Shown piece by piece: positions 13,491 through 16,690 of a stretch of DNA of 64,000 nt (position 1 is its first letter; each line of letters opens with the position of its first letter). The DNA is from Thioclava electrotropha (GTDB taxonomy: Bacteria > Pseudomonadota > Alphaproteobacteria > Rhodobacterales > Rhodobacteraceae). The notes beneath the pieces were generated by a model. That model was not told where the DNA came from. It saw only the letters and a program-made list of their open reading frames with translations, and did not search any database. The translations under genes were made by a program, and so were the position numbers. The stretch spans positions 3,609,501 to 3,673,500 of the forward strand of contig NZ_CP053562.1 in assembly GCF_002085925.2 (NCBI RefSeq), given 5' to 3'.

Positions 13491-14279
13491 ATGTTGAACA
13501 CGACCCCCTACACCTCCGACAGCAATCCCGGCGCGCGACCGCTGATCATCGCCCCCGGTCTTTTCGGATCGGCCCGGAACTGGAACGCGATCGCCAAGCG
13601 GCTGAGCGCGGACCGCCCCGTCATCGCGCTCGATATGCGCAATCATGGCGACAGCTTCTGGGACGACGATCACAGCTATCAGGCGATGGCAGGCGATATC
13701 GCCGAGGTGATCGAGGCGAATGGCGGGGTCGCGGATGTGCTGGGCCATTCGATGGGCGGCAAGGCGGCGATGACCCTCGCCCTGACGCAGCCGCAACTCG
13801 TCGCGCATCTCATCGTCGCGGATATCGCGCCCGAAAACTACGATCATGGCGACAACCACAGCGCGCTGATCGAGGCGATGCAGGGGATGGATATCAGCGA
13901 CCTCACCTCTCGCTCCGCCGCGGACGAGCGGCTGGGAGAGCAGGTCTTCGATCCGGGCACCCGTGCCTTCCTGCTGCAATCGCTGGTGCTGCGCGACGGC
14001 CCGCCGCGCTGGAAGTTCAACCTTGCCGCGCTGAAGGCGAATATGGACGACATCCTCGGCTGGCCCGAGGCGCTGGAGGGCAAGCAGTACGACGGCCCGA
14101 CGCTGTTCTTGTCGGGCGCGGACTCGCATTACGTGCGGCCGGAAATGCACGACCGTATCCGCGGCTTCTTCCCGCAGGCGCGTTTCGAGGAAATCGACAA
14201 TGCGGGGCACTGGCTGCACGCCGAGAAGCCCCGCGAGTTCGAAGCCGACGTGGCGCGTTTCCTCGACTCGACGAGTTGA
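13491..14279 (+). CDS. Alpha/beta-fold hydrolase (YbfF-like esterase)
   Basis: A 262-residue single-domain alpha/beta hydrolase without a signal peptide, so cytoplasmic. The oxyanion segment is APGLFGSARNW (21-31), the nucleophile S87 sits in GHSMGGKAA, an acid is probable in FLSGADSHYV, and the catalytic histidine lies in NAGHWLHAEKP near the end. The LFGSARNW and DMRNHGDS elements are typical of the YbfF/ABHD11 esterase group, whose physiological substrates are mostly unknown. ATG 13491 has only a weak ribosome binding site. It converges with the cytochrome b561 gene. Confidence 0.85.
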   Translation: MLNTTPYTSDSNPGARPLIIAPGLFGSARNWNAIAKRLSADRPVIALDMRNHGDSFWDDDHSYQAMAGDIAEVIEANGGVADVLGHSMGGKAAMTLALTQPQLVAHLIVADIAPENYDHGDNHSALIEAMQGMDISDLTSRSAADERLGEQVFDPGTRAFLLQSLVLRDGPPRWKFNLAALKANMDDILGWPEALEGKQYDGPTLFLSGADSHYVRPEMHDRIRGFFPQARFEEIDNAGHWLHAEKPREFEADVARFLDSTS

Positions 14280-14298
14280 GGAAACCGCGCCGCTGCGA

Positions 14299-14790
14299 TC
14301 ACGCGCCCGGCTTCATCATCCGCCGGATCAGGTGATCACGCTTGACGTACTGGTGATAGAGCGCGGCTGCCACATGCAGCCCGGCCAGCCACAGCAACAG
14401 GGTCGTCAGGATCGAGTGCGTCTCGGCCGCCCATCCCAGCTGCCCGTAATAGGCTACGAGGCCCGCAATCGGGATCAGGAACAGCAGCGCGTAGAGCAAC
14501 CAGTGGACTGCGGCCGCGCCGCGCCGGAAAATGGCGGGATCGTTCTCCGGCGGCTCGGGCGTGCCGTGGCTCGCGCGCAGTATCAGGCGCCAGATCGCAA
14601 GCGCGAGCACCGCGATACCGAGGACGATGTGACCATAGGTCAGCACCCCGGCGCTCGCCGATCCGCTCTCCATGAGATCGTGGAAGGTGTGCCCCATCGC
14701 GTCATTGAACAGATACTGGACGATGAGCAGCAGGACGACGGCCCAGTGGAGCCAAATCTGGGTTTTCGAATAACCGGGAGCGTAGGACAT
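14299..14790 (-). CDS. Cytochrome b561-type membrane protein
   Basis: A 163-residue, four-helix inner-membrane protein of the bacterial cytochrome b561 family, thought to move electrons between quinol and an acceptor, with superoxide scavenging proposed for some members. Histidines suited to two b hemes are in TQIWLHW (H15), LTYGHIVLG, AAVHWLLY and LHVAAALYHQYVKRDH. The hydrophobic segments are spaced as in the family. ATG 14790 lies behind AGAGGT. A 60-residue membrane protein is encoded just upstream in the same direction with an FNR box before it, so both may respond to oxygen. Confidence 0.88.
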   Translation of the reverse strand: MSYAPGYSKTQIWLHWAVVLLLIVQYLFNDAMGHTFHDLMESGSASAGVLTYGHIVLGIAVLALAIWRLILRASHGTPEPPENDPAIFRRGAAAVHWLLYALLFLIPIAGLVAYYGQLGWAAETHSILTTLLLWLAGLHVAAALYHQYVKRDHLIRRMMKPGA

Positions 14791-14909
14791 ATTACCTCTT
14801 TGAATTGACGAAACGCCGCCGCGCCTCGCCGGACTAGCGCGGCGAAGGCGCAGAGGTTCCGCCCTTCACGAAGTTGGGATTTTCCCGACGCCTGTGCCGC
14901 GCCGCGCCG

Positions 14910-15092
14910 TCAGGCGTTTTCGCGGATCATTTTGGCGATATACCACGCAACTGGCACGGCGACGAGGAACCCGATTACCGCGGAGACGATCATCGCGTTG
15001 GTGGTGAACATGTTCATCGTCAGCGCGGCAGTGATGAGGATACCCGCGAGGGTCGGTCCGACGAGGGCGTAGATGATACCGAAGAGGCGCAT
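14910..15092 (-). CDS. Small two-helix membrane protein
   Basis: A 60-residue protein with two hydrophobic helices (about 3-25 and 31-53) and a short basic end. It resembles tiny membrane proteins of Rhodobacterales that databases often mislabel as CTP synthetase; nothing in it resembles that enzyme, and its function is unknown. ATG 15092 has GGAG 7 nt upstream. A perfect FNR-type box is centred about 71 bp before the start, so induction under oxygen limitation is likely. Cytochrome b561 follows in the same direction about 120 bp downstream without a convincing terminator between. Confidence 0.72.
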   Translation of the reverse strand: MRLFGIIYALVGPTLAGILITAALTMNMFTTNAMIVSAVIGFLVAVPVAWYIAKMIRENA

Positions 15093-15156
15093 GTCTGATC
15101 TCCATTGAGCGGCGCATTTCGGTGGTCAGACTGACTCCGATCACGCGGATGTGACC

Positions 15157-15170
15157 TTGATCCGCATCAA
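15157..15170 (-). promoter_or_regulatory. FNR/FnrL-type binding site
   Basis: TTGAT-N4-ATCAA with all ten consensus bases (TTGATCCGCATCAA). If the site acts at -41.5 as a class II activator, transcription toward the 60-residue membrane protein would start near 15122, leaving a leader of about 30 nt, which is a sensible geometry. The site is seen; oxygen control is inferred from the known FNR consensus. Confidence 0.7.
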
Positions 15171-15204
15171 GTCCGCGCGGTCGCCGCTGCGGCAGGGCGT
15201 CGCA

Positions 15205-15522
15205 TCAGCAATCGAGCTGGAAGCGCGCCTCCCCCGTATCGCCGGGCAGCGAGGGCGATCGGTAGAGCCCTCCCGCCGGTCCCGCCACCGTACAGCCCGA
15301 GACCTTCTCTGCCGCGCGGATCATCAGCGGCGGCACGCGCCCCCGCTCTGCCCGGCGCAGAAAGCCCATGCGCACCACCTCCGCCCGTTCTCCCTTGAGG
15401 AAGACGACGAACTCGATGCCGTCGAGCGTGACCGTATGCCGTGATGCCCCGAAGAACTGCGGCGCCGGAGAGGCGCAGCCCGCGAGAAGGCCAAGAATAA
15501 GGAAAAATGGGGCTTTAGACAT
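15205..15522 (-). CDS. Small predicted lipoprotein
   Basis: A 105-residue product with a lipoprotein signal: basic start, hydrophobic core and lipobox LLAGC with acylated C16. The mature part has no family I recognise; it has a cysteine pair near the end (SGC and LDC) that could form a disulfide in the periplasm. The signal peptide fixes the start at ATG 15522. The start codon directly abuts a 14-bp hairpin whose 3' arm contains the only ribosome binding site (GGAG), and a CtrA box lies further upstream, so both transcription and translation look conditional. Confidence 0.75.
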   Translation of the reverse strand: MSKAPFFLILGLLAGCASPAPQFFGASRHTVTLDGIEFVVFLKGERAEVVRMGFLRRAERGRVPPLMIRAAEKVSGCTVAGPAGGLYRSPSLPGDTGEARFQLDC

Positions 15523-15559
15523 TGAAAGGCTCCGGGGAGGGACAACCCGGAGCCTTTCA
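15523..15559 (-). promoter_or_regulatory. Hairpin that sequesters the ribosome binding site of the lipoprotein gene
   Basis: TGAAAGGCTCCGGG (15523-15536) is perfectly complementary to 15546-15559, with a 9-nt loop. In the minus-strand transcript the 3' arm contains GGAG seven nucleotides before the ATG at 15522, and the stem ends exactly at the start codon. No T run follows, so a plain terminator is less likely than a translational block. Confidence 0.6.
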
Positions 15560-15567
15560 GAGCTTAA

Positions 15568-15583
15568 TTAACAAGAAGTTAAC
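15568..15583. promoter_or_regulatory. CtrA-type binding site (TTAA-N7-TTAAC)
   Basis: TTAA at 15568-15571, seven bases, then TTAAC at 15579-15583 match the full CtrA consensus. It lies about 46-61 bp before the lipoprotein start. If it overlaps the -35 region, transcription toward the lipoprotein would start near 15540, inside the hairpin loop. The match is seen; CtrA binding is inferred. Confidence 0.5.
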
Positions 15584-15600
15584 CAGCTCGGGCGGAGTGT

Positions 15601-15632
15601 GCGGCCCCCGCGAGGGACAAAGCAGGGGCCGC
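15601..15632 (-). terminator. Hairpin downstream of the 70-residue membrane protein gene
   Basis: GCGGCCCC (15601-15608) pairs with GGGGCCGC (15625-15632). It lies just past the stop of the minus-strand gene ending at 15652, so it is probably its transcript end, though no T tract follows. Its loop contains GAGGGACAA, the same nine bases that make the loop of the hairpin at 15523-15559. Confidence 0.4.
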
Positions 15633-15651
15633 AAGACCGTTCTGACAGGGA

Positions 15652-15864
15652 TCATGCCTGGCGGGGCGGCCAGAACGGGTCATTCCTTTTTATCCGCCGC
15701 TCGGTCCAGAGACCTGCGGGAATTCCTAAGACAATCCCGACGATCACGGCGAACGCGAATTCCTGCCATCCGACAAAGCCGAAAGTCAGAGCTGCGATCA
15801 CCACGACCCCGGTCACGACGAGGGCCGAGAGGGCGGCGAGGAATAAGCGCAGAGGCTTCTTCAT
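15652..15864 (-). CDS. Small two-helix membrane protein under an EcfG-type promoter
   Basis: A 70-residue inner-membrane protein with two hydrophobic helices (about 7-28 and 34-52) and a basic, proline-rich tail (ERRIKRNDPFWPP). The family is unknown to me. ATG 15864 is preceded by GGGAGA. A GGAAC-N16-CGTT promoter lies about 30 bp upstream, back to back with an identical type of promoter facing the entericidin gene, so both are probably part of the general stress response. A hairpin follows its stop codon. Confidence 0.7.
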   Translation of the reverse strand: MKKPLRLFLAALSALVVTGVVVIAALTFGFVGWQEFAFAVIVGIVLGIPAGLWTERRIKRNDPFWPPRQA

Positions 15865-15894
15865 TCGGGCTCTCCCTTATGTGTTCGAGGGCAA

Positions 15895-15919
15895 AACGCC
15901 GCTCCTTGCCTCCAGTTCC
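15895..15919 (-). promoter_or_regulatory. EcfG-type (general stress sigma) promoter, leftward
   Basis: On the minus strand GGAAC (15919-15915), a 16-bp spacer and CGTT (15898-15895) match the -35/-10 consensus of alphaproteobacterial EcfG sigma factors. The predicted transcript start near 15888 gives a leader of roughly 24 nt to the 70-residue membrane protein gene. Confidence 0.65.
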
Positions 15920-15921
15920 AC

Positions 15922-15946
15922 GGAACCGTAAATTTTTTCGTACGTT
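15922..15946 (+). promoter_or_regulatory. EcfG-type promoter, rightward, for the entericidin-like gene
   Basis: GGAAC (15922-15926), a 16-bp spacer and CGTT (15943-15946). The -35 element is only 2 bp from that of the leftward promoter (GTTCC-AC-GGAAC), giving a nearly symmetrical divergent pair. The start of the entericidin-like gene is 34 bp past the -10 element. Confidence 0.65.
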
Positions 15947-15979
15947 GGCCGGTGATGGCTTAATAGGAGAGCGAAAGAG

Positions 15980-16117
15980 ATGACGAAATCGGTTCAAATG
16001 GCGGCAATGACCGTAATCCTTCTGGGCCTCGCGGCCTGCAACACCGTGCAAGGCGCAGGTCAGGACCTGTCCGTTGCAGGCAACACGATCGCGGGCGAGG
16101 CGCGTCAGGCGCGCTAA
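15980..16117 (+). CDS. Entericidin-like small lipoprotein
   Basis: A 45-residue lipoprotein: MTKSVQ start, hydrophobic core and lipobox LAAC at about 17-20, then NTVQGAGQDLSVAGNTI, the hallmark of the entericidin A/B family. The mature peptide of about 26 residues would be anchored in the envelope by its lipid. Entericidin B of E. coli is a stationary-phase, bacteriolytic lipoprotein; whether this homologue is toxic is unknown, and no paired antidote gene is visible. AGGAGA lies about 10 nt before ATG 15980. The gene has an EcfG-type promoter upstream and a strong terminator downstream, so it is a single-gene stress unit. Confidence 0.88.
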   Translation: MTKSVQMAAMTVILLGLAACNTVQGAGQDLSVAGNTIAGEARQAR

Positions 16118-16148
16118 ATTCCAAGCCTGACAGCCAAACGAAAAAGTC

Positions 16149-16180
16149 AAAGGCCCCGGAGTTTTCCGGGGCCTTTTTTT
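16149..16180 (+). terminator. Rho-independent terminator after the entericidin-like gene
   Basis: AAAGGCCCCGGA (16149-16160), loop GTTT, then TCCGGGGCCTTT (16165-16176): a perfect 12-bp stem running into seven T residues. Confidence 0.95.
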
Positions 16181-16210
16181 CTCACCTCTGACGTCAGGGA
16201 CACGCCTGGC

Positions 16211-16690
16211 TCAGTAATTCACATGAGCGACGCGGTCTTTCATCGACTCGCCCGGGTCCGACGAGAGCAGGATCTTCGCGCCCGCGACCAGCGCGTTGCC
16301 GCTGTCCCAGATCTCGGCCTGATCCGGATCGAAGCGCAGCAGCACCAGCTTCGGGTCGTCCTTGCCCTCGTACCAGGCGCCGATGAAGGGGTTCCATAGC
16401 CGCTCCACGACCGTGGGGTCAGTATTCTCGGTCAGACGCCCCGTGACGGTCGCGAAGACCTTGTGGCCCTTGTCCGAGAAGGTGAACATCGCCCCTGCTC
16501 AGGGGGCCAGCCCGTCCATCAATTCCGTGTCGCGCGCGGTGAAGAACCACACAGGGCCGGGCTTCTCCTCGACGATCGCCGTCATCGGGCGCGGCGCTGC
16601 CGTCTCGACGCCGGCCCGCGCCAGCATCACGGTGCGATCCGAGTCGAGCGCATCCCAGAAATCTTTCTCGATCTTGGCTTGGTCGGTCAT
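16211..16690 (-). pseudogene. Pyridoxamine-phosphate-oxidase-like general stress protein, interrupted by in-frame TGA
   Basis: Two collinear fragments in the same frame together make one flavin-binding split-barrel protein of the general stress protein 26 family (about 159 residues). The first runs from ATG 16690 (AGGAGGA 7 nt upstream) through DKDFWDALDSDRTVML-type residues to DGLAP; then TGA at 16501-16499; then AGAMFTFSDKGHKVF and WNPFIGAWYEGKDDPK to the end at 16211. No bases are inserted or lost, so a single substitution (for example GGA or CGA to TGA) explains it. It may be a true pseudogene, a base error or a rarely read-through stop. A GGAAC-N17-CGTT promoter upstream fits a stress role. 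Confidence 0.75.

Follow-up and report, generated by a model that had tools for sequence, protein, structure and literature searches.

A predicted divergent pair of EcfG-type promoters between two small envelope genes of Thioclava electrotropha

Two copies of GGAAC-N16-CGTT stand back to back between two tiny genes of Thioclava electrotropha, which raises the question of whether they form a divergent promoter pair read by EcfG, the general-stress sigma factor of alphaproteobacteria. We addressed this question in a stretch of 64,000 nucleotides, referred to as the window (NCBI RefSeq assembly GCF_002085925.2, contig NZ_CP053562.1, positions 3,609,501 to 3,673,500, forward strand). Window positions 15895-15946 read AACG-N16-GTTCC-AC-GGAAC-N16-CGTT, and the form expected of an EcfG promoter (GGAAC, 16 to 17 bp, CGTT) is exact on both strands, with the back-to-back layout and the GTTCC-AC-GGAAC centre that an earlier note on this DNA had described. 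The two open reading frames (ORFs) that the note placed beside the sites are also as described. CGTT and the ATG are separated by 33 nt on the entericidin-like side and by 30 nt on the 70-aa side, and a consensus scan of 14200-16300 found no sigma-70-like promoters. The features of the locus are the following:

15205-15522, minus strand: 105-aa lipoprotein-like ORF (lipobox judged by eye), the next gene behind the minus-strand promoter
15652-15864, minus strand: 70-aa ORF, judged by eye to encode a hydrophobic membrane protein; relatives in 12 of 61 genomes
15895-15919, minus strand: predicted EcfG-type promoter GGAAC-N16-CGTT, directed towards the 70-aa gene and then the lipoprotein gene; its 9 motif columns all unchanged across the 12 orthologues
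15915-15926, no strand: GTTCC-AC-GGAAC centre holding both putative -35 boxes, 2 bp apart, from the sequence and the orthologue alignment
15922-15946, plus strand: predicted EcfG-type promoter GGAAC-N16-CGTT, directed towards the entericidin-like gene; its 9 motif columns all unchanged across the 12 orthologues
15980-16117, plus strand: entericidin-like small lipoprotein of 45 aa (PF08085, 22.2 bits; NF007487, E 7.8e-8)
16149-16176, plus strand: hairpin and T run resembling an intrinsic terminator, after the entericidin-like gene, by consensus only

We term the 45-aa protein entericidin-like because its profile scores fall below the cut-offs, just below for PF08085 (23.3) and further for NF007487, the NCBIfam entericidin B model (31.9 bits against 94). 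The 70-aa ORF matched no protein family above cut-off in profile searches. The terminator-like feature is a single hairpin seen on both strands, and 1.6 such sites are expected in the region.

The earlier note had called nine fixed bases matched twice in 52 bp hard to dismiss as chance, a judgement that fails for the single motif and holds for the divergent arrangement. A window scan for GGAAC-N16/17-CGTT returned 4 matches, namely, the pair and two N17 sites elsewhere, where 0.82 are expected; this number was reached in 1 of 100 shuffles of the window. Across the whole genome the single motif is not enriched, with 61 sites against 88 for the reversed control pattern, and the nine fixed bases alone therefore prove nothing. 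Divergent pairs were sought with at most 30 bp between the -35 boxes and one spacer fixed at N16, a pattern that misses N17/N17 pairs. They occur at 3 places in this genome (5 hits), against 0 control hits, and at 46 places in 37 of 295 genomes of the family (65 hits, both strands), against 3 control hits, the last count being tallied by eye from the table.

The strongest evidence for the predicted promoter pair is the conservation of its motifs upstream of orthologous genes. Both sites are kept in all 12 Thioclava genomes that have a close entericidin-like orthologue and a syntenic upstream region (G000-G003, G005-G007, G009, G010, and G013-G015, all of the window's genus). All 18 motif columns are invariant; among the remaining columns of the aligned block the figure is 7 of 34, and in its flanks 11 of 64, or 18 of 98 neighbouring columns in all (Fisher P 1.6e-11, with columns taken as independent and kinship uncorrected). 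The block holds 10 distinct sequences among the 12 orthologues, from species that are related and not independent. Within the spacers, 1 of 16 columns is invariant on the minus strand and 6 of 16 on the forward strand. Because the motifs are conserved in 12 same-genus orthologues, a chance origin of the pair appears very unlikely.

An EcfG reading supposes a genome that encodes EcfG, NepR, and PhyR, and the earlier note had named the lack of an ecfG-type sigma as fatal to its proposal. All three genes were found together. The nepR gene scores 57.6 bits (cut-off 25.7), and the ECF sigma gene adjoining it scores 328.8 with NF009198 (cut-off 270), the only place in the genome above that cut-off. 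Divergent at the same locus is phyR, which scores 359 with NF006623 (cut-off 240) and has PhyR sigma domains in Pfam, and an HWE/HisKA_2 kinase beside these genes scores 257 against a PhyK model cut-off of 750, a shortfall that counts against the EcfG reading. The name of NF009198 is RNA polymerase sigma factor only, and the assignment to EcfG comes from the locus and from the top-scoring relative of solved structure, 5uxx (167.5 bits), which we take to be an EcfG-type sigma with NepR. For PhyR, the top-scoring relatives of solved structure are 9cb6 (373.5 bits) and 4qic, named PhyR (244.3 bits). GGAAC-N17-CGTT stands upstream of nepR, and of the 61 motif sites in the genome, 9 fall within 19.3 kb around the phyR-nepR-sigma locus where 0.27 are expected, in a region chosen after inspection and with only some of the nine sites examined as promoters.

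Relatives of the entericidin-like protein occur in 25 of the 61 genomes, with 31 matches, 30 of which yielded loci. GGAAC-N16/17-[C/T]GTT lies upstream of the best hit in 18 of these 25 genomes: the 12 Thioclava genomes, G004, G008, and G011 with TGTT, and G025, G028, and G030 with CGTT. It is absent upstream of the best hit in G012, G016, G021, G022, G041, G043, and G050, the last of which has GGTT at N17, and upstream of five second-best loci (L112-L116). The motif accompanies nepR, being found before the best hit in 18 of the 22 nepR-bearing genomes and in 0 of the 3 that lack nepR (Fisher 0.015), where the [C/T] of the -10 pattern was picked after seeing the sites, the species are not independent, and G016 counts as nepR-bearing with a hit below cut-off. 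With CGTT only, the counts are 15 of 22 and 0 of 3. The 4 nepR-bearing genomes that lack the motif before this gene count against the EcfG reading. In G028 and G030, the entericidin-like gene is about 1.6 and 2.4 kb from nepR, respectively.

Comparable targets have been described in other alphaproteobacteria. GGAAC-N16-CGTT is the EcfG motif of Sphingopyxis granuli, where the -10 boxes attributed to EcfG promoters include TGTT and GGTT (PMC7083833). According to the same source, ecnAB (SGRAN_1922) and csbD are direct EcfG targets, the former of two EcfG factors, and both fall to 0.00 in the double mutant (Table 1 for ecnAB). The Caulobacter entericidin B homologue CC_3473 has a SigT motif and is 2.57-fold down in a sigT mutant under carbon starvation; counting against the EcfG reading, it is not SigT dependent under osmotic stress (PMC3073932, Table 1). 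Its number places it beside the sigT locus, and one passage of PMC3073932 assigns it to PhyR, whereas the Thioclava gene, which has a divergent partner, is located about 0.5 Mb away from that of the sigma factor.

These observations bear on the alternative that the promoters are real and are read by a different ECF sigma with a GGAAC -35 box. Eleven sigma-family places in the genome score above cut-off, and the 10 that are not the EcfG-type sigma leave room for such a factor; housekeeping and heat-shock sigmas are probably among them. However, the same motif precedes the genome's own nepR-sigma unit, the motif before the entericidin-like gene tracks nepR, and the same target class and motif are EcfG dependent in other bacteria according to the published accounts cited above. 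We regard a different sigma as highly improbable.

The minus-strand promoter faces the 70-aa gene, as the earlier note proposed, yet it may have more than this one purpose. At 5 of the 12 orthologous places, the gene is broken or absent: it has an internal stop in G003, lacks its start and a further part in G010, and has no match in G005, G014, or G015. None of these five species has lost the promoter that points at the gene, and the 70-aa gene may therefore not be the promoter's only purpose. Since G003, G010, and G005 each resemble a member of the set that possesses the gene, it was probably lost at least four times, as judged without a tree. The minus-strand spacers of G003, G005, and G010 differ by one base at most from that of a near relative with the gene, and recent gene loss is an alternative account of promoter survival in these three. 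G014 and G015, where the spacers have diverged and the gene is gone, are the informative cases.

Such losses, together with a minus-strand spacer that is nearly free of invariant columns, would suit the idea that the forward promoter alone works and the minus-strand match is a chance occurrence or a relic. Against this stands the retention of 9 of 9 minus-strand motif columns in 12 of 12 orthologues, G014 and G015 included, and three remote relatives of the 70-aa protein have a motif of their own upstream. These relatives, at other loci, are preceded by GGAAC-N17-TGTT (G010 and G013) or GGAAC-N17-GGTT (G017), and no motif stands just upstream of a second relative in G017 or of the relatives in G022 and G026, two genomes without a nepR hit. 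A single working promoter thus seems to us more improbable still. Least probable is a dimeric transcription factor that binds the GTTCC-NN-GGAAC palindrome, with incidental CGTT matches. We rejected such an operator, although the 5-bp inverted repeat is perfect in all 12 orthologues, because the half-sites are not at a fixed spacing (the gap is 3 bp in G014 and 2 bp in the other 11, with variable letters), both CGTT tetramers at N16 are just as invariant, and at six more distant entericidin genes GGAAC occurs singly, followed by CGTT or TGTT.

The simplest reading is that the minus-strand promoter serves a longer unit, and it may also serve the next gene, the small lipoprotein, which is found at 11 of the 12 loci; in the remaining genome, G005, the contig ends with no more than the start of this gene on it. 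As an addition to the EcfG reading and not a rival to it, the promoter could be kept mainly for the lipoprotein gene and its structured leader behind the 70-aa gene. The survival of the promoter in all five species without an intact 70-aa ORF points this way, as do a lipoprotein start behind the promoter in 12 of 12 orthologues and a hairpin predicted over the likely ribosome-binding site of the lipoprotein gene in 12 of 12. However, a conserved CtrA-like box upstream suggests that the lipoprotein gene perhaps has its own promoter, the losses of the 70-aa gene may be too recent for decay, and intervening GC-rich hairpins may block read-through. We hold this addition to be plausible, a little short of an even chance.

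The hairpin in question spans 15522-15557 on the minus strand with 13 to 14 pairs; the likely site of ribosome binding lies in its 3' arm, which ends at the start codon of the lipoprotein gene, and translational control or attenuation is a possible role. The box, TTAA-N7-TTAAC at 15568-15583, is the sole one in the window (0.01 expected) and, as we take it, resembles the CtrA consensus; all 12 aligned orthologues retain the two TTAA half-sites with 7 bp between them. A search of 15000-16300 with Rfam gave no match at the gathering score among the 21 listed. We also considered a separate small RNA in G014 and G015 and set it aside as too weak to claim, with 7 of 43 predicted pairs double-changed and a covariation term of -0.94, as counted in 9 of the 12 sequences (excluding G006, G007, and G013, near-copies of G000).

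Taken as a whole, the locus is very probably a divergent promoter pair read by EcfG, and the divergent general-stress unit of the earlier note is supported as a prediction. Under stress, phosphorylated PhyR would sequester the anti-sigma NepR and free the EcfG-RNA polymerase. Transcripts would then start about 7 nt past each CGTT, leading in the plus direction to the entericidin-like lipoprotein and in the minus direction to the 70-aa membrane protein and then, perhaps by read-through, the small lipoprotein, such that both genes would be induced by stress, and together. Because the -35 boxes are only 2 bp apart, one polymerase would cover both of them and the two promoters would exclude each other, the two sides being co-induced across the population and fired singly. 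This argument for exclusion rests on the general footprint size of the holoenzyme. A bolder version, which we consider unlikely, is an exclusive two-way switch in which one EcfG polymerase per round picks the envelope programme and the minus transcript provides the lipoprotein gene with a structured leader or RNA. A minus transcript that is useful without the 70-aa protein would account for a promoter that persists although the 70-aa gene has repeatedly been lost.

R. sphaeroides belongs to the same order as Thioclava. Its PhyR has a role in membrane stress and no major role in general stress (PMC5830050), which counts against the EcfG reading. Overall, the pair is a well-supported, ordinary member of the known class of EcfG/SigT/RpoE2 promoters of alphaproteobacteria, with which it shares GGAAC-N16-CGTT, a phyR-nepR-ecfG locus, and small envelope or stress targets, including entericidin and CsbD. 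Its geometry is unusually tight: unlike in that class, two promoters nearly touch. In S. granuli, nepR2-ecfG1 and ecfG2 are likewise divergent general-stress genes with a GGAAC-N16-CGTT promoter, but the ecfG2 side lacks the consensus, and the portions of PMC7083833 at hand mention no divergent promoter partner for ecnAB, whereas the Thioclava gene has one. Literature searches on divergent EcfG promoters, overlapping divergent promoters, and general stress in Thioclava listed nothing recognisable as this arrangement.

These results have implications for the predicted general-stress regulon of Thioclava, which would gain two tiny envelope genes and perhaps one more. The pair is also a small, naturally occurring system in which to ask whether two holoenzymes can work from neighbouring -35 boxes. 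Divergent EcfG-type pairs recur across the family with very different spacings, and the window pair sits at the tight end of the range: among the 46 family pairs, the gap between -35 boxes is at most 4 bp in 8 and 23 or 24 bp in 12. The genome's other two pairs, between genes for an AI-2E transporter and CsbD and between those for PLDc_N and DUF1328 small proteins, likewise match the motif exactly on each strand and are flanked by small envelope or stress genes, but have 24 bp between the -35 boxes against 2 bp at the entericidin-like locus. The PLDc_N/DUF1328 pair, at L032 16477-17022, lies between genes for two tiny proteins. The pile-up of family gaps at 23 to 24 bp could mark a preferred spacing for two polymerases or a single orthologous locus.
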